A stretch of 33,547 bases of DNA from Chloroflexota bacterium (lineage in GTDB: Bacteria; Chloroflexota; Anaerolineae; Promineifilales; Promineifilaceae): the NCBI GenBank assembly GCA_018004935.1, contig JAGNBF010000088.1:1-33547 (forward strand), read 5' to 3'. The notes under the pieces were generated by a model. That model was given only the letters and a program-made list of their open reading frames with translations, made no database searches and was not told where the DNA came from. The position numbers were made by a program, and so were the translations under genes. Positions 10,687-18,938 of this stretch are shown piece after piece; the first letter of the stretch is position 1; every line of letters starts with the position of its first letter.

Positions 10687-13284
10687 TTAGGGTGCTGTTA
10701 CCTCAATCGTACCAGCCATTCCTACACCACCCGGCAAGCCGTGCAAGGTGCAGTAATAGCTATACGTTCCTGGTGCATCAAAGGTAAACGCCTGCGACTG
10801 GCTATTACCGATCAGCCCGGTATCGAAGTGACCATCATCAGCGGTAGCAGAGTGCAGGGCTTGCCCCACATTGACAAAGCGCACGACAGTACCGGCAATT
10901 ATAGAGATACGCGGCGGTTCATTGCTGAAATCACGCATCTCGACAACCAGCTCACCACTGTTCGTTGCCACGATCACGGCATCGGCGACCGGCTCCGGAT
11001 CCACAATCGCGGCCGCGGCCCCGGTTGTGACCCCAATGGCCCCGGTATACTGGGCATGCTGATAGGCGGTGAAGATACCACCCTCTTCCGGTTCCACAGT
11101 GCCATCCCCATCTGCATCTGCACCCCACAAGAGCAAGGTACTGACACGGCGCAAGGTTGCCACATCTTCGGCAATCTGACTCACCGAGGTCGCGGCCGCG
11201 ATATTTTGCACCGCCTGCTGAAGTTCGGCTGACCAGGCCAGGGCATTATCCGCGGCCATACCCACATGGGTAGAGTGAATACGGATGGCATTGGTCGCAT
11301 CGGCAGACGAACCTGCCGCCAGGGCTGTCGCCTTCAGGTTTTCCAGGTAGGTATCAATGCCAAAGGTATCACCCGGATTCTGGATTCCATGCCGTCCATC
11401 TATATCTTGAGCGGCCAGTTCACCGACCAAAATGTTGAGAATATGTTCTGAGTGTCGTTGGGCATCGGTGATACTGAGTAATTCCAGAGCCACCTCTACA
11501 AACTCGACATGGCGAATGAGTTCTTCTACCTGATAACGTGCCCCCACAGCATAACCCAGGCCACGTGGCGTTGCGGCCGCGACGGTCATCCGTCGTATGA
11601 TTTCGGTAGCCTGACGTGGTTGACTGCCACTATAGACCACCGTACCCGGTATTTGCACATTACCTTCACCCTGCTCCAGGGTAATCTCAAAACCATCATA
11701 TTGGGCCATCAGATTTTCGCCCAACGGATGGGTTGTGCTATGAGTAACAGCCCCACTACCATCTACCGTCAAAGTACCCACATTCCACACCTGACCGGTC
11801 AGGCTATTAATCAACCAACCGACATAAACAAAGCCGGGTGGGGGGGCCGCCATGCCATTCAATGTTACCATGACCGAATCACTGGCCTGAAACTGATCAT
11901 AAAAAGCGACAAGCCCTACAACCTGCACATCGGGTGTGGGTGGCTCAATCAGGGCCACGGGCGGCGGTGGTACGGAGGGGGCCGGTGTTGGCGTTGGTGG
12001 AACCGTATCTGGCGTTGGTTGCGCTAATACTTGTGCCACCGTCGCTTCTGTTCGTTCTACAACCGTCACCGTTGAAGACATGCCATTACCTGGCCCACCG
12101 TGCAGAGAGCAATAGATGACATATTCACCCGGCTCCGTAAAGGTAAAGGCAAAACTACCTGCCTGCCGGAAATCATCGCTGGTAACGGAACCATCGGCAA
12201 AAGTGACATTATGCAAGGCTCTGTCCTGGCTAAACCAGGTCACATTCGTCCCGGCCAAAACAGTTACCGTTGCCGGGCTAAAGACAAAGTTTTGCAGAAG
12301 GATTCGTTGTGGAGGAGGCGGCAAATCGGGGGGCAAATCTTCTATAGCGAAGGGGGTGGCGGTTACGTCAACGACTTCACCATCCGGGGCTTCTTCACCG
12401 CCAGTCAGATAATAAACGAAATACGTACCCGTCCCCAGGGCAAACGCCATTGTCCACAAGACAAAGGTTAGCCACATGAAGTAGCGTAAGGTTCCAATTT
12501 TGCGCGGTAATATTTTGTGCCCGGCCAACAAGCAGTAAATGGCGACTATTTCGGCCAGCGTGCCCAGACCGCCATGAACCAGCGGCAACAGCAGATCGGG
12601 ACTCAATGACGCATTGCCACTGACCATGAAGCCAAGAAGGGCGCGATAAGAGCCAATCATTAGGAAGAGGATGAGGAAGAAGTTGCCGATAACCACGATC
12701 GTCATGATCCAGTCATGGGCTTTCCATAACCGCATTAATTGCACGGCCACACCCAGGAGCAGAAGCATGTAGAGGGCCGCTTCTCCCAGGAGGGCAATAT
12801 CCGCCCCCATTGAGGCTCCCGTACCCAAGAAACCAGGCCCACGGACGAAACCGGGCGAACTCGGCTCCGCACCGGTGGTTGGGGTGATAGGTGAGGTAAT
12901 GGTGACTACCCCAGACGCGGCCGCGCCGGGCAAGTTCAAATCAGCATATAGCTCAACCGGCGCAGTTCCCGCCAGGGTTGGCGTGGCTAACGGTTTGGCC
13001 GTGGCCAAGGGGGTAGATGTGGGCAAATTTACCGTGGGGAGAGGTAACGACGGCTCCTGCGAGGGTGCCGGGGTCAGTTCTCCATATGGTTCAGCCGGAT
13101 CATCATCATCATCGTCATCATCGTCATACGGATCGTAGGCCTGGGCAAAAGCTGACCAGCTAAAGGAGCTATAAGCCAGTCCCACTACACGGGTGACAAT
13201 GAAATAATTGAGCAGGAGTACAATAAATACCACACTCAAGCTCCGCCAATAGGTAGAAATCCAACCACCAAGCCATTTACGCAT
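10687..13284 (-). CDS. Membrane protein with two plastocyanin-like copper domains
   Basis: 865 residues from ATG 13284 (GGAGTGAG upstream); a longer frame would run into the previous gene. Layout: membrane anchor at 17-37; run of nine Asp at 54-62; Pro/Thr-rich linker; four-helix membrane block at about 162-292 with His190, His237 and His256; first cupredoxin at about 327-410 with ligands His358, Cys392, His395, Met402. Next is a Pro-rich linker, then a roughly 250-residue helical region with several His (RHVEFVE, RHSEHIL, HSTHVGM) and an EF-hand-like DADGDGTVEPEE. The second cupredoxin closes the protein (ALHSAT, then YYCTLHG and GVGM). Both copper sites keep all four type-1 ligands. It is probably an extracytoplasmic electron carrier or copper sensor coupled to the membrane block. 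The partner is unknown, and the helical region is not recognised. Four GCGGCCGC sites. Confidence 0.8.
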   Translation of the reverse strand: MRKWLGGWISTYWRSLSVVFIVLLLNYFIVTRVVGLAYSSFSWSAFAQAYDPYDDDDDDDDDPAEPYGELTPAPSQEPSLPLPTVNLPTSTPLATAKPLATPTLAGTAPVELYADLNLPGAAASGVVTITSPITPTTGAEPSSPGFVRGPGFLGTGASMGADIALLGEAALYMLLLLGVAVQLMRLWKAHDWIMTIVVIGNFFLILFLMIGSYRALLGFMVSGNASLSPDLLLPLVHGGLGTLAEIVAIYCLLAGHKILPRKIGTLRYFMWLTFVLWTMAFALGTGTYFVYYLTGGEEAPDGEVVDVTATPFAIEDLPPDLPPPPQRILLQNFVFSPATVTVLAGTNVTWFSQDRALHNVTFADGSVTSDDFRQAGSFAFTFTEPGEYVIYCSLHGGPGNGMSSTVTVVERTEATVAQVLAQPTPDTVPPTPTPAPSVPPPPVALIEPPTPDVQVVGLVAFYDQFQASDSVMVTLNGMAAPPPGFVYVGWLINSLTGQVWNVGTLTVDGSGAVTHSTTHPLGENLMAQYDGFEITLEQGEGNVQIPGTVVYSGSQPRQATEIIRRMTVAAATPRGLGYAVGARYQVEELIRHVEFVEVALELLSITDAQRHSEHILNILVGELAAQDIDGRHGIQNPGDTFGIDTYLENLKATALAAGSSADATNAIRIHSTHVGMAADNALAWSAELQQAVQNIAAATSVSQIAEDVATLRRVSTLLLWGADADGDGTVEPEEGGIFTAYQHAQYTGAIGVTTGAAAAIVDPEPVADAVIVATNSGELVVEMRDFSNEPPRISIIAGTVVRFVNVGQALHSATADDGHFDTGLIGNSQSQAFTFDAPGTYSYYCTLHGLPGGVGMAGTIEVTAP

Positions 13285-13385
13285 AGGTCTTCTCACTCCT
13301 CTAAGATTAGTACAGGGATGAACACGAATTACCAGGGGGTGTTTCATTTGCCAATGGGAAAATTGGCACTCCCGGTGGCCTCGCC

Positions 13386-14897
13386 TTACTCCATCAGGGT
13401 CATGCGGGCACAACCACACCCCGCTACCGGGGAAAAGGTAAATGTATTCTCTGTAAACCAATTACGATGGGTGGTATAAACAATTTGTCCGGCGGCCAGC
13501 CGCTCTTTCACTTCCTCAGTGGCCCACGGCCGCCCGATGAAAATGAGATTACGCGCCACCACATCCGGGCGAACGGTTTCTACCAATTGCAGATATTCAA
13601 TAATGGGGATGTTGGTCCAGGTGCCATAAAGGATGGCCTGCTCTGGCAGATGGGTCAGAATAGCCTCGCCTCGCTCACGGGCTGACCAGTCCTGGCTGAC
13701 ATCGGTAAGGGGGTAGTTGAGGATAAACGCGGCCGCGACCAGGCACCCCAATGTCAGGGGCACAACCGGAGCCAACGACGTGTGCATAACCCATTCGTGC
13801 ACCCGGGCCGCCCCCACCCCTAACCAGATGCCCCAAATGAGATAAGCAGGAATAAACATGAATTGTTTGTCTACCACTTTGTAGGTCAGGTAAAAACTCA
13901 CATGCGCCAGGAACATGAGGAGTAAGGCCAGATGGAACACCGGTCGGCGACGCCAATCGGCGCACAGACCAAATAGGCCGAGCAGAATGCCCAGCCCCAG
14001 GTAATTGCTCCATAGTTGGTGCAGAAAGGTGAATAATTCACCGGGCAATTTGGCGCTGGAAACACCTAAAAAGAGGGAACCAAAGATGCGGCCGCTAACC
14101 ATCCACCAGAACCCTGACCATGTAGTTAGATCTATCCCCCAATAATCACGGGCATAATTCAGGTTGTCCGCATCCAGATAACGGAGGGGCAGGTAGAGGT
14201 AAATGAGCAAACCTAAAAGTCCGGTCGCGGCCGCGATCAGCCAGATAACCCCTGATTGTTGACCGTTCTCAGTTGCCTGTTCACGACCCTCTGCCCCCTT
14301 GCCCCACAACAGCCAGGCAAACCCCGGCACAAGCAACACCAACGACAAATGGTTCCCCAACCCCAGACCCAATAGAAACGTAAAAAGAGGGAGAAGCCAG
14401 CTTTGCTTTGTAGCACGCCAACGCAAAGCCAGCCAGAGCAAACCCACAAACCACGCTCCTTGCAACGCATAGAGTTCCGCGGCCAGGGTACTGATCCAGA
14501 TGTAGTAAGAAAAAGCACAAAACCAGGTTACAAGCAGAGCCAGCCAGCGGGAGCGGGTGAGGCCACGCAAAATCTGGAACAAAAAGGCGGCCATGATCAT
14601 CCCAGACACCACAGAGAGCAGGTTTACCCGGTAGCCAACATCCCCTACCGGGAGCCAGGTAAACAGGTGGGCCAACAACAAATAAAGGGGAGAGCCAGGG
14701 GGATGAACAATGCCCAGTGTGTAAGCGCCGGTTGTCAGTTCGGCGCTATCCAGGCCAAAAATGGTGGGGGCCATCGTTTGCAGGTAGACGAAAAAGGGAA
14801 GCAACGCGGCCGCGATCCACCAACCCCAATCAGCTACACGGGATCGGGACTGGGTTTGTACTTCTAGCACAGGGGGGAATATAAGTTCACGCTCCAT
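13386..14897 (-). CDS. DUF2723 membrane protein (O-mannosyltransferase-like GT-C)
   Basis: 503 residues from ATG 14897; a TTG seven codons upstream is the alternative, and no ribosome site distinguishes them. The N-terminal signature TMAPTIFGLDSAELTTGAYT followed by LGIVHPPGSPLYLLL matches DUF2723, where the Asp-Ser/Asp-Ala-X-Glu motif in the first loop is expected to be catalytic as in GT-C enzymes. About eleven membrane helices follow, with a short C-terminal soluble part. It likely transfers a sugar from a lipid carrier to a protein or glycan outside the cytoplasm. It stands 101 bp upstream of the cupredoxin gene and could be co-transcribed with it. Four GCGGCCGC sites. Confidence 0.85.
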   Translation of the reverse strand: MERELIFPPVLEVQTQSRSRVADWGWWIAAALLPFFVYLQTMAPTIFGLDSAELTTGAYTLGIVHPPGSPLYLLLAHLFTWLPVGDVGYRVNLLSVVSGMIMAAFLFQILRGLTRSRWLALLVTWFCAFSYYIWISTLAAELYALQGAWFVGLLWLALRWRATKQSWLLPLFTFLLGLGLGNHLSLVLLVPGFAWLLWGKGAEGREQATENGQQSGVIWLIAAATGLLGLLIYLYLPLRYLDADNLNYARDYWGIDLTTWSGFWWMVSGRIFGSLFLGVSSAKLPGELFTFLHQLWSNYLGLGILLGLFGLCADWRRRPVFHLALLLMFLAHVSFYLTYKVVDKQFMFIPAYLIWGIWLGVGAARVHEWVMHTSLAPVVPLTLGCLVAAAFILNYPLTDVSQDWSARERGEAILTHLPEQAILYGTWTNIPIIEYLQLVETVRPDVVARNLIFIGRPWATEEVKERLAAGQIVYTTHRNWFTENTFTFSPVAGCGCARMTLME

Positions 14898-14971
14898 GAA
14901 CTGGTTATTGGTTATCAATTATTGACCTGATAATCGTTCAGTTGTGTCAATTCATCCGCCAGCCCACCCGG

Positions 14972-15101: not shown

Positions 15102-15506
15102 TTAATAACCTGATCCCGCTCCAGATCGGGCTAATAAATCCCTGATTTCAGCGATGAGGACGGACCAGCCTTGTCCCTTCTCTACAAAGGCATCGGCCCC
15201 AACAGCTAAAGCGTGGTGACGGGAATTGTCATCGGTGTGGACGGTGAGAAAAACGATGAGAGGGCAATTATCGGCTTGCTTGAGTTTTTGAGCAACCTCA
15301 TACCCATCGAGATAAGGTAGTTCAATGTCGAGAATGACAATATCGGGCTGAAGGTGGCTCGCGGCCGCGAGCGCTGACTGTCCATCACCCGCCTGCCCCA
15401 CCACCTTCAACTCCGGTGTATTCTCCAAGGCCCAGGACAACGCCTCGCGCACAGCAGGTACATCGTCCACCAACAAAATACGATACGGAATGCTCACACT
15501 TTCCAT
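15102..15506 (-). CDS. Stand-alone response-regulator receiver domain
   Basis: 134 residues from ATG 15506; an in-frame ATG four codons upstream is possible. The CheY-like fold has all key residues: acidic pair Asp14-Asp15 (LLVDD), phospho-acceptor Asp60 (DIVILDIELP), Thr88 (FLTVH) and Lys110 (FVEKGQ). The protein stops after the receiver with only a Gly/Ser tail, so output must pass through a partner protein. No histidine kinase is in the window. One GCGGCCGC site at 15361 codes AAA in the ALAAASHL loop. Confidence 0.93.
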   Translation of the reverse strand: MESVSIPYRILLVDDVPAVREALSWALENTPELKVVGQAGDGQSALAAASHLQPDIVILDIELPYLDGYEVAQKLKQADNCPLIVFLTVHTDDNSRHHALAVGADAFVEKGQGWSVLIAEIRDLLARSGAGSGY

Positions 15507-15712
15507 ACAAGGAAGCATAAACCACAACCGCAGACGCAACCGCTGACAGGGGTTATAAGTTATTCCTATCAAAAGTTAGGGGATAAGGTAGGGGGGCGGC
15601 GATAGCCTGGTACAGCCTGGCGAAAATATAGACCCTAAGATAATGATTTTGGGTACGGGCTGGCCTTGTGTGAATATCAGCCAGTGAAAACCCTGGTTTC
15701 TGTTCTAAACGG

Positions 15713-17278
15713 TTACTGGTTATTGCTGGCCGTTGTTTCAATCTCACCGCAGTTGGTTTTGGGGATCTCGAGCGTGTTGCTGGCAATGCCATCGCGTAAT
15801 ACATCTTCCAGATACGGAGTATCCTGATTGTAATAGTTATACGTCGCCCGCGACACATCCGCCATGAAAGGAAAACTGACCGTCCAGTCGAGCCAACCTT
15901 CAGCATAGATAAAAGTCACAATCACATAATCACGTCCGGCACTCTCTATAATAGCGGCATCCCCATGAGTGCCATAAAAACCCACATCACCGTCTATCCA
16001 ACCATGTTTATGAGCCACACGCGTACAGGGAGGCACACCTGGGCGCAAAATATATCCCTCCATATTCATACTGAGATAATGAATAAGCGCCTGACACTCC
16101 TGCGGGGTTAATTGATCGGGGTATACAGCTAAAAGCGTCCCCCCACCCTGGGCGCAGTAATACACCATAGACAACAAGTTACCGATTTCTCTGGCGGTTG
16201 TCTGCATGGCCGGGTCCAGGGGAATCTGGTTTTCCAGGTTGGTATTGGCCGGGGTGAGGTATGTTTGTCGCTCCAGGCGGGCCGGTTCTTCATAGGGTGT
16301 GGCAATAAAGGTATTTTCCAGGCCTAATCGGCGCATGGACTCCGTGAGAATGTCCGAACCTAAATAGGCGTTGTCTTGACCCGCTACCACATCCAGCAAA
16401 AGGTTCGCACTATAATTGCCGGAAAAAACCAACGTCTCGGACACCAGTTTTGTCTGATCTATAGATAAGTTCTCATCTACAGCGCGGAACATTTCCAGGA
16501 CGATGGCGATTTTCATAATGCTAGTACCCGACATGGCCTGATCCGCATTGATGGCGACCTCTTCCCCGGTTTGCAAATCCATGATATAGAAACTACCCCC
16601 ACCGGGAAAAGTAGCGAGTTGGTTCTCAATGAAGGTTTCTAATAGATCAAGACCGGGGGCGACACTGGATTGGGGGTTGACGGTAAGGGTTACAACCCGG
16701 TCTTCCAGGCGGTAAAGGGCCGCTTCCGCGGCCGCGACCCCACTCGCCACATCCGTTTTAATTCCCCCTTCACCAGCGCGAAATGTCAAGGTTGAAGGTT
16801 CAATCTGGGGCATGGTCACGGGTAGATCTAGATAATTAGCAATCGAAAGAATCGTGGCTTCCACCAGTTCTGGGTCGTGTGTGGCAACTAATTCAATGAT
16901 GGTGGGATTCAGCGGCCGCGATAACAAATACCCCACAAAACCCTCCCCAAATGTCATCTGTGTACGCACCTGTTCAGCTTCCCCCAACATCACATCCAGA
17001 TCCAGGGCAAAACCCACATCAGCCGGATTGATCTGCACCATATCCTCTAAATGGTACACGGCCACAGGCTGGCTATAAGCCGCTATCACCTTCTCCCTGG
17101 CCTCTTCACCTGTCAACCCCTCCACTACTACCCCCCCAATGGTTGTTCCGACAGGCAAAAAACGGCGTTCCTGCTGATACAAAAACGCCTGATACGCCAG
17201 GTACGCTCCCCCCAACAAAAGCGCAATCAACGTAAGATAACGAATAAGGATTCTGGTAAAAGAGTTTTCCCGCTTCAT
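15713..17278 (-). CDS. PG-binding plus class A beta-lactamase-fold serine hydrolase (active-looking)
   Basis: 521 residues from ATG 17278; the open frame extends upstream but runs through a repeat. N-terminal signal anchor at about 10-33, then a YoaR/PG_binding_4-like module (VGTTIGGVVVEGLTGEEA) typical of VanW/YoaR-type envelope proteins. A second similar module spans about 110-200, and a Beta-lactamase2-type catalytic domain about 225-495. The catalytic motifs are present: SxxK as Ser253-I-M-Lys256, SxN as Ser286-Gly-Asn288 (followed by YSANLLL), and the KTG equivalent as Lys424-His-Gly426. It likely acts on peptidoglycan or on beta-lactams outside the cell. It stands next to a close paralogue upstream. 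Two GCGGCCGC sites (16728, 16912). Confidence 0.85.
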   Translation of the reverse strand: MKRENSFTRILIRYLTLIALLLGGAYLAYQAFLYQQERRFLPVGTTIGGVVVEGLTGEEAREKVIAAYSQPVAVYHLEDMVQINPADVGFALDLDVMLGEAEQVRTQMTFGEGFVGYLLSRPLNPTIIELVATHDPELVEATILSIANYLDLPVTMPQIEPSTLTFRAGEGGIKTDVASGVAAAEAALYRLEDRVVTLTVNPQSSVAPGLDLLETFIENQLATFPGGGSFYIMDLQTGEEVAINADQAMSGTSIMKIAIVLEMFRAVDENLSIDQTKLVSETLVFSGNYSANLLLDVVAGQDNAYLGSDILTESMRRLGLENTFIATPYEEPARLERQTYLTPANTNLENQIPLDPAMQTTAREIGNLLSMVYYCAQGGGTLLAVYPDQLTPQECQALIHYLSMNMEGYILRPGVPPCTRVAHKHGWIDGDVGFYGTHGDAAIIESAGRDYVIVTFIYAEGWLDWTVSFPFMADVSRATYNYYNQDTPYLEDVLRDGIASNTLEIPKTNCGEIETTASNNQ

Positions 17279-17447: not shown

Positions 17448-18938
17448 TTAGGGCGTCGTACCCACAAATGGTGCATCAAAATTGAAATAGTTATATGTTG
17501 CCCGGGAAATATCTGCCAGCAGAGGCGAACTTACTTCCCATTCCAACCACGTATCCCGATACAAGAGCACTACCACCACATAATCACCACCGGCACTATA
17601 AACTATCCCGGCGTCACCATGCGTATCATTGATCCAACCATGTCGGTGAGCAATTACGGTGCCATCAGGTGCACCCTGCTCGATGAGGCTATCAATATTG
17701 TTTTCTTGCATCAAAGCCAAAATCTGCTGGCACTCCGTTTGCGTAATCTGTTCTGGAAAAACAGCCCGCAACGCCCCCCCATCTTCCTGGGCACAGTAAT
17801 ACAACATCGCCAACAATAACCCCATGTCCTCAGCTGTCGTCTGCACAGTGGGATCAGGAATCGTATCCATAATTTCGACACTGTTGGCGGGTGTTTCCAA
17901 AGTGCGCCGATTCGTCCGTACCGGTTGCTCATAAGGCGTGACGATAAACGTATTTGTCAGCCCCAACCGGGTCATCATATCAGTGACAATATCTGTACCC
18001 CGATATGCGTCTGCTTCACCTTCAGTTTGCGCCGCAAACAGTTGTAACAAACTATTTGGGCCAGGACTGGTTACATCCAATAGAGTCTCTTGCAACCATG
18101 TCCGCTCTTCGGCTGTGGGGCTGGTCGTTAAAACCTGATACGTGGTCACAGCTAGAGGTAATTTCACCAGATGCATCCCTGACATGGCTACATCCGCCCG
18201 ATAGTTAATTTCCGCCCCATTGGTCAGATCCATAATAAAAATGCTCGCTACCCCCCCATATTCCTGTTCAAATTCCTGCACATGGTTGACAATCAGTCGA
18301 GCCAGCAGGTCAATATCTGGGCGTTCTGGATCAATTGGGTGCAGTTGCAGGCGGGCTTCTCGCGTTTCCGCCCGGTAAAAGGCCGCTTCCACATCCGCCA
18401 GACTGGACAAAATATCTACTTCGGTGCCAGATGTGCCATATTGAAAACTAAGAGAGGTAGGAACCGGCTGGGGTGGTTGAGCCGGGGCGTTCAGATTAAG
18501 GGCGATGGCTTCTAAAGTATCCATCAGCGCATCACGGTTATGGGTAGCATATAAATCAACTGATTCAACTTCAACCGGTTGATCCCACAAAAATCCCCAG
18601 AACCCGGCCCAGAAATCCTGCTGTGAACGCTGATAATCAGCATCCCGCAACATACTATCCATATCTAGTTGAAATTCGGCATCGGCAGGGGCAATCTCCA
18701 ATCGTTGTTCACCATACCAGAGGATAACCGGCGCATCTTCGTACCGGTTGCTGATAATTTCAGCCGCCTGTTCCAGGCTTTGGCCGCCTACGTTGATGCT
18801 GGCAATGGTAAGACCAGCCGGAAGGCGATCCCGCACCTGCCCGTATTGCCAGAGTTGGTACAGTATAAAAAGGAAAATGCCCACGGTAACGATAACAGTA
18901 AGCCACTGACCAATACCGGGTGAAGATTGTCGGTTCAT
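17448..18938 (-). CDS. Paralogous beta-lactamase-fold protein lacking the catalytic serine
   Basis: 496 residues, ATG 18938. Same layout as its downstream neighbour: membrane anchor at 10-30, YoaR/PG-binding-like modules (PAGLTIASINVGGQSLEQAA), then a Beta-lactamase2-like domain. Long stretches align with the neighbour (DLTNGAEINYRADVAMSG; TNTFIVTPYE; SRATYNYFNFD). The SxxK motif, however, reads His256-L-V-Lys259 (codon CAT), SxN reads Ser-Pro-Gly at 291-293, and KTG reads Arg-His-Gly. It is therefore predicted to be inactive, perhaps a binding or regulatory partner of the active paralogue. The fold residues and frame are intact, which argues against simple decay. It has no GCGGCCGC site, unlike its paralogue. 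Confidence 0.82.
   Translation of the reverse strand: MNRQSSPGIGQWLTVIVTVGIFLFILYQLWQYGQVRDRLPAGLTIASINVGGQSLEQAAEIISNRYEDAPVILWYGEQRLEIAPADAEFQLDMDSMLRDADYQRSQQDFWAGFWGFLWDQPVEVESVDLYATHNRDALMDTLEAIALNLNAPAQPPQPVPTSLSFQYGTSGTEVDILSSLADVEAAFYRAETREARLQLHPIDPERPDIDLLARLIVNHVQEFEQEYGGVASIFIMDLTNGAEINYRADVAMSGMHLVKLPLAVTTYQVLTTSPTAEERTWLQETLLDVTSPGPNSLLQLFAAQTEGEADAYRGTDIVTDMMTRLGLTNTFIVTPYEQPVRTNRRTLETPANSVEIMDTIPDPTVQTTAEDMGLLLAMLYYCAQEDGGALRAVFPEQITQTECQQILALMQENNIDSLIEQGAPDGTVIAHRHGWINDTHGDAGIVYSAGGDYVVVVLLYRDTWLEWEVSSPLLADISRATYNYFNFDAPFVGTTP

Follow-up and report, generated by a model that had tools for sequence, protein, structure and literature searches.

When one of two adjacent genes for serine hydrolase-like proteins has lost the residues on which the chemistry of its neighbour depends, is it a relic of duplication, or is it kept for a task other than catalysis? 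The question is raised by two genes on the minus strand of the window, by which we mean the whole analysed stretch of 33,547 nucleotides from a Chloroflexota genome. The upstream gene, here called P, had been described in a first-pass annotation as a catalytically dead paralogue retained next to its enzyme, here called A, and a binding or regulating role in peptidoglycan metabolism or beta-lactam sensing had been suggested for it. We examined the motifs, orthologues, phylogeny, selection and gene context of the pair.

P has lost the catalytic motifs that A retains

P is followed on the same strand, after 169 nt, by A; both frames are open, and the two proteins are 40% identical over 489 positions (the open reading frame of A was listed from a TTG at 17479, but its residues are numbered here from the ATG at 17278). 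They were the sole matches to P in the 8.0-Mb genome at E 0.001, and again the only two proteins found there in a PF13354 search at E 1e-8. Both scored as members of PF13354 (Beta-lactamase2), P with 72.3 bits (E 4.7e-20) and A with 78 bits against a cut-off of 22, and the domain was matched in 56/56 and 50/50 rows of two sets of relatives, A2 and A3 (E up to 1). The cut-off of 200 for the class A beta-lactamase model NF033103 (NCBIfam) was reached by neither (P 41.9, A 44.9 bits). PF12229 (PG_binding_4) precedes the fold domain in relatives, often as a weak match (33/56 rows of A2 and 43/50 of A3, E up to 1); it scored 15.9 bits in the window's A, below the cut-off of 22.1, and no match was obtained in the window's P (Pfam, E up to 1). 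AlphaFold models (mean pLDDT 91.3 for P and 92.8 for A) predict for both proteins an N-terminal helix, an N-terminal domain (N-domain) and a class A beta-lactamase/D,D-peptidase fold. The earlier description of P as an intact gene was thus borne out, by an open frame of 496 aa with an N-terminal anchor helix and a predicted fold.

Table 1. Features of the P-A gene pair in the window
Feature	Position	Strand	Remark
P	17448..18938	-	496-aa dead paralogue with membrane anchor, N-domain and Beta-lactamase2 domain
P single N-terminal transmembrane helix (aa 9-36)	18831..18914	-	model helix 9-36 and hydrophobicity by eye
P N-terminal extracytoplasmic domain (aa 37-206)	18321..18830	-	PG_binding_4-like in relatives
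P DFWAGFWGFLW stretch, inside N-domain	18585..18617	-	conserved among P orthologues
P beta-lactamase/D,D-peptidase-fold domain (aa 207-490)	17469..18320	-	fold matches LRA-5, PBP-A
P His256 (CAT), at catalytic Ser place	18171..18173	-	Asp in most orthologues
P Lys259, SxxK Lys retained	18162..18164	-	alignment of orthologue rows
P Val-Thr-Ser 289-291, at SxN place	18066..18074	-	P/A alignment
P Arg432, at Lys of KHG	17643..17645	-	alignment of orthologue rows
A	15713..17278	-	active-looking paralogue, 521 aa from ATG at 17278, pLDDT 92.8
A catalytic Ser253 of S-I-M-K	16520..16522	-	Ser in 45/45 A rows
A Lys256 of S-I-M-K	16511..16513	-	Lys in 45/45 A rows
A SxN motif Ser286-Gly-Asn288	16415..16423	-	SSN 34, SGN 11 among 45 A rows
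A Lys424 of KHG	16007..16009	-	Lys in 44/44 A rows reaching this place

In the P/A alignment, S253-I-M-K256 of A stands opposite H256-L-V-K259 of P, and K424-H-G opposite R432-H-G, exactly as had first been read. The SxN motif (S286-G-N288 in A) is likewise lost from P, but the Ser-Pro-Gly triplet originally assigned to its place is not the aligned one: Val-Thr-Ser (289-291) occupies it, and Ser-Pro-Gly starts two residues later. Judged by the triad of an active SxxK protein (Ser-x-x-Lys, SxN, K[T/H]G), A would be an enzyme and P would not. Loss of the nucleophile and loss of SxN are incompatible with activity by the SxxK mechanism. The Lys-to-Arg change in the third motif alone is no proof of inactivity, because the PDB titles of the PSE-4 carbenicillinase (1g68, wild type; 1g6a, 'R234K mutant') imply an Arg234 in an active enzyme. 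Furthermore, the catalytic helix begins at K259 in the P model and at residue 252 in the A model, so that its first turn is predicted to be missing from the window's P. As for the omega-loop Glu166 of class A beta-lactamases, a tyrosine of A aligns at Leu158 of PBP-A; the loop differs, and acidic residues come after it.

PBP-A and LRA-5 are among the closest structural matches

PBP-A of Thermosynechococcus (Tll2115; PDB 2j7v and 2j8y, and the L158E mutants 2j9o and 2jbf) was the best PDB sequence match for both proteins and among their best fold matches: compared with 2j7v by VIA-align, the P model gave Z 27.6 (rmsd 2.1, 231 aligned residues) and the A model Z 28.1 (rmsd 2.2, 231 aligned). The enzyme has D,D-carboxypeptidase and endopeptidase activity with specificity for amidated muropeptides (PMC11189452). 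Unlike PBP-A, P lacks the Ser, the SxN and the Lys, and P and A alike have a membrane helix plus an additional N-terminal domain; the spacing from Ser to SxN in A, 33 residues, is shorter than that of PBP-A in the HMMER alignment. The top VIA-align match of both models was LRA-5 (PDB 8eo5-8eo7), a class A beta-lactamase precursor from a soil metagenome, with Z 29.1 (rmsd 1.9, 229 aligned) for P and Z 29.5 (rmsd 2.0, 231 aligned) for A against 8eo7, although matches within Z 1 count as tied and many class A beta-lactamases score only slightly lower. To judge from the title of its V166E mutant, LRA-5 is without Glu166, and its PDB chains consist of the beta-lactamase-fold domain alone with no tandem pair, in which P and A differ.

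Another PDB entry, 2wuq ('beta-lactamase regulatory protein'), we take to be BlaB of Streptomyces cacaoi, a beta-lactamase-like regulator standing beside a beta-lactamase. BlaB keeps a Ser (S-L-V-K) where P has His. By analogy it may be the closest functional precedent for the P-A arrangement, but the match is weak (E 0.01, a 91-aa piece), and a common subfamily or regulatory role would be tentative.

Loss of the catalytic Ser is the rule among P orthologues

The sample consisted of 52 genomes from 22 genera of the host's family; all have a match, four as fragments only, and the P-A tandem pair occurs across this family of Promineifilum-type Chloroflexota. A first reading gave 45 rows each for P and A. 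At the nucleophile place the P rows held Asp in 34 cases, Ser in eight, His in one (the window), Gly in one and an ambiguous codon (GAN) in one; three further P genes, read later, added Asp, Asp and Ser. P was therefore readable in 47/52 genomes, with Asp in 36, Ser in nine, His in the window alone and Gly in one, the others being the ambiguous case and the four fragments. Ser is missing from 38 of the 47 readable orthologues; by genus it was lost in 17, kept in three and unread in two, which goes beyond chance. A, in contrast, has the Ser, the SxxK Lys and an SSN or SGN motif in 45/45 rows and the KHG Lys in 44/44.

Besides the window, 35 P rows have lost the Ser. All 35 have Arg at the KHG place, 26 retain the SxxK Lys (Arg in eight, Asn in one), and the SxN place of Ser-lost rows shows 17 different triplets. 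The eight Ser-type rows have Lys at the KHG place in seven cases and Arg in one (G026). Eight of the nine P orthologues with Ser also have that Lys and an SGN motif, and the exception is again G026 (S-V-L-K, T-G-N, Arg); since the Ser is kept in these nine, P may still be an enzyme there.

Ser loss is the rule in P, and only the His of the window is singular. Orthologues with Ser had been named beforehand as the observation that would expose a strain-specific mutation or a sequencing error; they do exist, yet they are outnumbered by 36 with Asp and one with Gly, and because the loss is common to relatives, such an error or mutation is ruled out as its cause. The His itself, for which conservation had been considered, is found in one of the 47 readable orthologues and is known from one MAG only.

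Two P genes are visibly broken, that of G044 (L092:8840-10376) being split into two overlapping frames and that of G037 (L043:8115-9320) being shortened; both may be assembly errors of the MAGs. A third, shorter and active-looking PF13354 relative (S-x-x-K, K-V/I/L-G) lies elsewhere in some genomes of the family (L057-L060). A fragment with Lys had raised the idea of G014 as a Ser-keeping sister of G015; it was dropped, because diagnostic residues place the G014 and G022 fragments with A, and they are thus silent about P.

One duplication was followed by repeated loss

P and A formed two clades with SH-aLRT supports of 99 and 99, and of 100/98 and 100/99 in a second tree. The sister family has one full Ser copy in each of four genomes, outside both clades (one of these genomes has an additional short match of 122 query positions). 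Separate P and A clades beside the Ser proteins of the sister family indicate one duplication before the host's family arose. Thus, the trees show that a single-copy, membrane-anchored SxxK protein of the PBP-A/LRA-5 kind, belonging to the Anaerolineae, was duplicated in tandem in the family ancestor.

Catalysis was apparently lost on several separate branches of P. In topology tests run with the motif columns left out, a single loss uniting all 35 Ser-lost P rows was rejected (p-AU 0.0014), whereas a grouping of the main clade, G015 and the window, chosen with the tree already in view, was not rejected (p-AU 0.306), so that the strict minimum within the family is two losses. Parsimony with regain allowed gave three changes on either the P tree or an RpoB-based tree, and the loss-only count was four on each, with some deep forks unsettled in both; the four loss branches are the main clade, G015, G007 with G008, and the window. 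Each of the four goes with a Lys-to-Arg change, which likewise counted four on the RpoB-based tree, and in the line of G026, G007 and G008 the change to Arg came before the Ser was lost. Ser is encoded by AGY in 45/45 A rows and 8/8 Ser-type P rows and Asp by GAY in 34/34, so every change from Ser to Asp took two base changes. Asp nevertheless arose on three of the four branches and occupies 34 of the 35 Ser-lost rows besides the window; the P of G008 has Gly.

The pair is retained while its surroundings differ

The two genes lay on the same strand in 45/45 loci that had both, with A downstream of P in 44/44 measured loci, so that the gene pair, whose conservation the first-pass annotation had proposed to check, is conserved among orthologues. 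The gap measured -26 to 98 nt in 39 of the 44 loci, 155-175 nt in four (including the window) and 1020 nt in one. The other 19 ORFs of the window were compared with the 44 sister loci by BLASTP (E 1e-8, 40% coverage; flanks up to about 10 kb, shorter on small contigs), and none occurred at the corresponding place. The pair is thus retained while its neighbours differ, and it stays together where the surroundings change.

The window encodes a response regulator 0.14 kb downstream from A, which is not at that place in the sister loci; its identification with a response regulator gene of 20/44 loci was rejected, the latter being situated upstream of P (-3 to -4 kb), with 35% identity. A Nudix-like gene stands directly upstream of P on the same strand in 37/44 sister loci, at about 1 kb (e.g., L095:7723-8616), and is absent upstream of the window's P. 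Further upstream, PspC-like, histidine-kinase/regulator and PAP2-like genes occur in 19 to 27 loci (these and the Nudix-like gene were named by reading their sequences). The gene context of the window and the 44 sister loci yielded no function for P-A. Elsewhere in the window, Pfam found a 924-aa protein with cupredoxin/plastocyanin-type domains (10687-13461; Copper-bind in two stretches, Cupredoxin_1) and a TMEM260-like protein of the protein O-mannosyl-transferase family (13386-14918), which adjoins the response-regulator receiver gene (15102-15572).

P is under purifying selection, and its membrane-near half is the most constrained relative to A

Nei-Gojobori dN/dS of the P fold domain was 0.025-0.127 in 11 of 12 Asp-type species pairs, the twelfth being saturated, and for A it was 0.030-0.110 in the 11 of these 12 pairs that were computable; both Ser-type P pairs were saturated. 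The pairs are of close species and share species, so that they are dependent, and the window's P is not among them. Among these close species, P is kept under about the same purifying selection as A. The other P frames are long and open, with 44-58% identity to the P of the window.

In 779/780 pairs of 40 species, the N-domain of P was more similar between species than that of A (means 0.583 versus 0.406), whereas the C-terminal domain (C-domain) was slightly more alike in A (0.621 versus 0.584 in P; P higher in 223/780 pairs). The N-terminal tail and helix of P are also much more conserved than those of A, and the part of P most constrained relative to A is the membrane-near half. The dN/dS values and this constraint show that P is not decaying. 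With catalytic residues lost across orthologues and the gene retained by selection, P is what is called a pseudo-enzyme, and the earlier view of it as one kept beside its enzyme is upheld by the conserved pair and the purifying selection.

The N-domains of P and A evolve in a correlated manner

Distances between the N- and C-domains of both proteins (PN, PC, AN and AC) were correlated across 34 species with RpoB distances held constant. All P-A domain pairs were correlated to some degree, PN-AN most strongly (0.65), compared with 0.47 and 0.46 for domains within one protein, 0.45 and 0.43 for the cross pairs (PN-AC and PC-AN) and 0.26 for PC-AC. The bootstrap proportions for PN-AN exceeding PN-PC, AN-AC and PC-AC were 0.92, 0.986 and 0.996; within the main clade alone (24 species), PN-AN was 0.45 and not above AN-AC (0.48). 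Because the C-domain of P is encoded between the two N-domains, linkage alone would not predict this order. The correlations hint that the N-domains of P and A may be in contact or share a ligand.

A dead copy outside the family, with no active partner found

In a class-wide sample, 152/249 genomes had a relative at E 1e-20. The 48 rows outside the family, which represent fetched loci only, a subset of the relatives with some genomes present twice, comprised 46 with Ser and two with Gly; the latter are evidently one record, G089, having the same length, scores, motif and contig position. Ser is also present in all 17 further relatives, which come from the sister family and from other families or are third copies inside the host's family. 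The G089 copy (L141/L279; G089:C5:18796-20214) is dead by its motifs, with G-L-L-R, D-D-T and Arg, and shares D-D-T at the SxN place with the P of G015; it branches outside the host's family and the sister family together (99/94). No second member of this kind, active partner included, was found in the G089 genome, which is a MAG (94% complete, 7% contaminated) and the sole genome of its family in the sample. A dead copy for which no active partner was found suggests a non-catalytic role independent of A and speaks against an obligate pair, so that, in G089 at least, such a protein need not work by way of A.

Possible roles of P

Inactive paralogues that partner active enzymes are known, and they are recognized by lost catalytic residues, purifying selection and pairing; to these P adds repeated loss, Asp at the nucleophile place, Arg at KHG and membership in an SxxK pair. 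The best explanation of our data, to which we give an even chance, is that P is a non-catalytic, membrane-anchored, wall-facing subunit or scaffold that works with A and was kept after duplication and catalytic loss. The single-copy SxxK ancestor was doubled in tandem in the ancestor of the host's family. A kept all SxxK motifs and most likely acts as a D,D-carboxy/endopeptidase on peptidoglycan stem peptides, and P lost catalysis in most lineages, its Ser mostly becoming Asp, its SxN being scrambled and its KHG Lys turning into Arg. By contacts between N-domains, the anchor and N-domain of P might hold, position or tune A or a larger assembly in the wall; the old active site might serve as a structural, closed or ligand-holding pocket, perhaps with an Asp/His-Lys-Arg cluster. 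The role originally proposed, that of a partner which binds or regulates in peptidoglycan metabolism, would be plausible.

P may instead be non-catalytic but act alone, as a membrane-anchored, wall- or stem-peptide-binding, lectin-like 'receptor' linked to A by inheritance and co-expression. This is quite possible, though we lean against it: G089 has a dead copy only, the N-domain with its aromatic DFWAGFWGFLW stretch, the tail and the helix are far more conserved than those of A, and PF12229 of the relatives is named a putative peptidoglycan-binding domain, but the retained pair and gene order and the rate correlation between the N-domains speak for a bond with A. New chemistry, with Asp as the nucleophile in place of Ser and Arg in place of the KHG Lys, is improbable. 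Asp replaces a Ser nucleophile in some alpha/beta hydrolases, and in P it appeared on three of four loss branches despite needing two base changes and is near invariant (34/35); however, the SxN place is free to vary (17 triplets), the SxxK Lys has given way to Arg or Asn in some rows, and other lineages have His (the window) or Gly (G008 and G089), which makes Asp catalysis unlikely.

We regard it as highly improbable that P is a decaying, redundant duplicate without function. Scrambled motifs and the two broken genes of G044 and G037 would fit such decay, but a degenerate pseudogene is rejected by the conserved, long open frames at 44-58% identity to the window and by dN/dS of about 0.03-0.13, like that of A, and an N-domain more conserved than A's speaks against decay as well. 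A covalent sensor of beta-lactams or muropeptides, the other half of the original proposal, is scarcely to be expected either. P does have a membrane-anchored ectodomain of beta-lactamase fold; nevertheless, sensing by acylation in the manner of BlaR1/MecR1 is unsupported, because P has no acylatable Ser and, by Pfam, no signalling domain. Only a short N-terminal tail precedes its one transmembrane helix, no second domain was found by Pfam, and the response regulator near A in the window is not at that place in the sister loci.

A bolder version may be considered, tentative and in our judgement rather doubtful, of a D,D-peptidase-like family in which the non-catalytic role is older and more constrained. 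Catalysis would have been repeatedly discarded (on the four branches and in G089, where no active copy was found), always together with a Lys-to-Arg change and, for three of the four branches in the family, with Asp at the nucleophile place. If this were true, the remodelled Asp-Arg pocket would have a new ligand or partner, and the pair, where it exists, would be a hetero-oligomeric regulated peptidase; that Asp and Arg recur leads one to expect a pocket that was selected and remodelled. Wall growth can be regulated by pseudo-enzymes that stand next to active cell-wall enzymes, and to our knowledge a natural series showing an SxxK peptidase turning into a pseudo-enzyme is rare. Here the intermediates are present, from Ser with SGN and Lys (8/9 Ser-keepers) through Ser with Thr-Gly-Asn and Arg (G026) to the fully dead forms, so that the order of steps is testable. 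P is a conserved pseudo-enzyme of an SxxK protein pair and apparently evolved repeatedly; our literature search, with subscription journals outside its scope, returned no paper describing such a pair. As a caution, Chloroflexota MAG genes labelled as beta-lactamase or serine hydrolase may encode non-catalytic proteins.

As regards the task of A, no Peptidase_S11 protein (DacA-type D,D-carboxypeptidase) was matched at E 1e-8 in five genomes, G000, G089, G033, G011 and G053, that of the window included. Given this, PF13354 proteins such as A may carry the D,D-carboxypeptidase task in these genomes.
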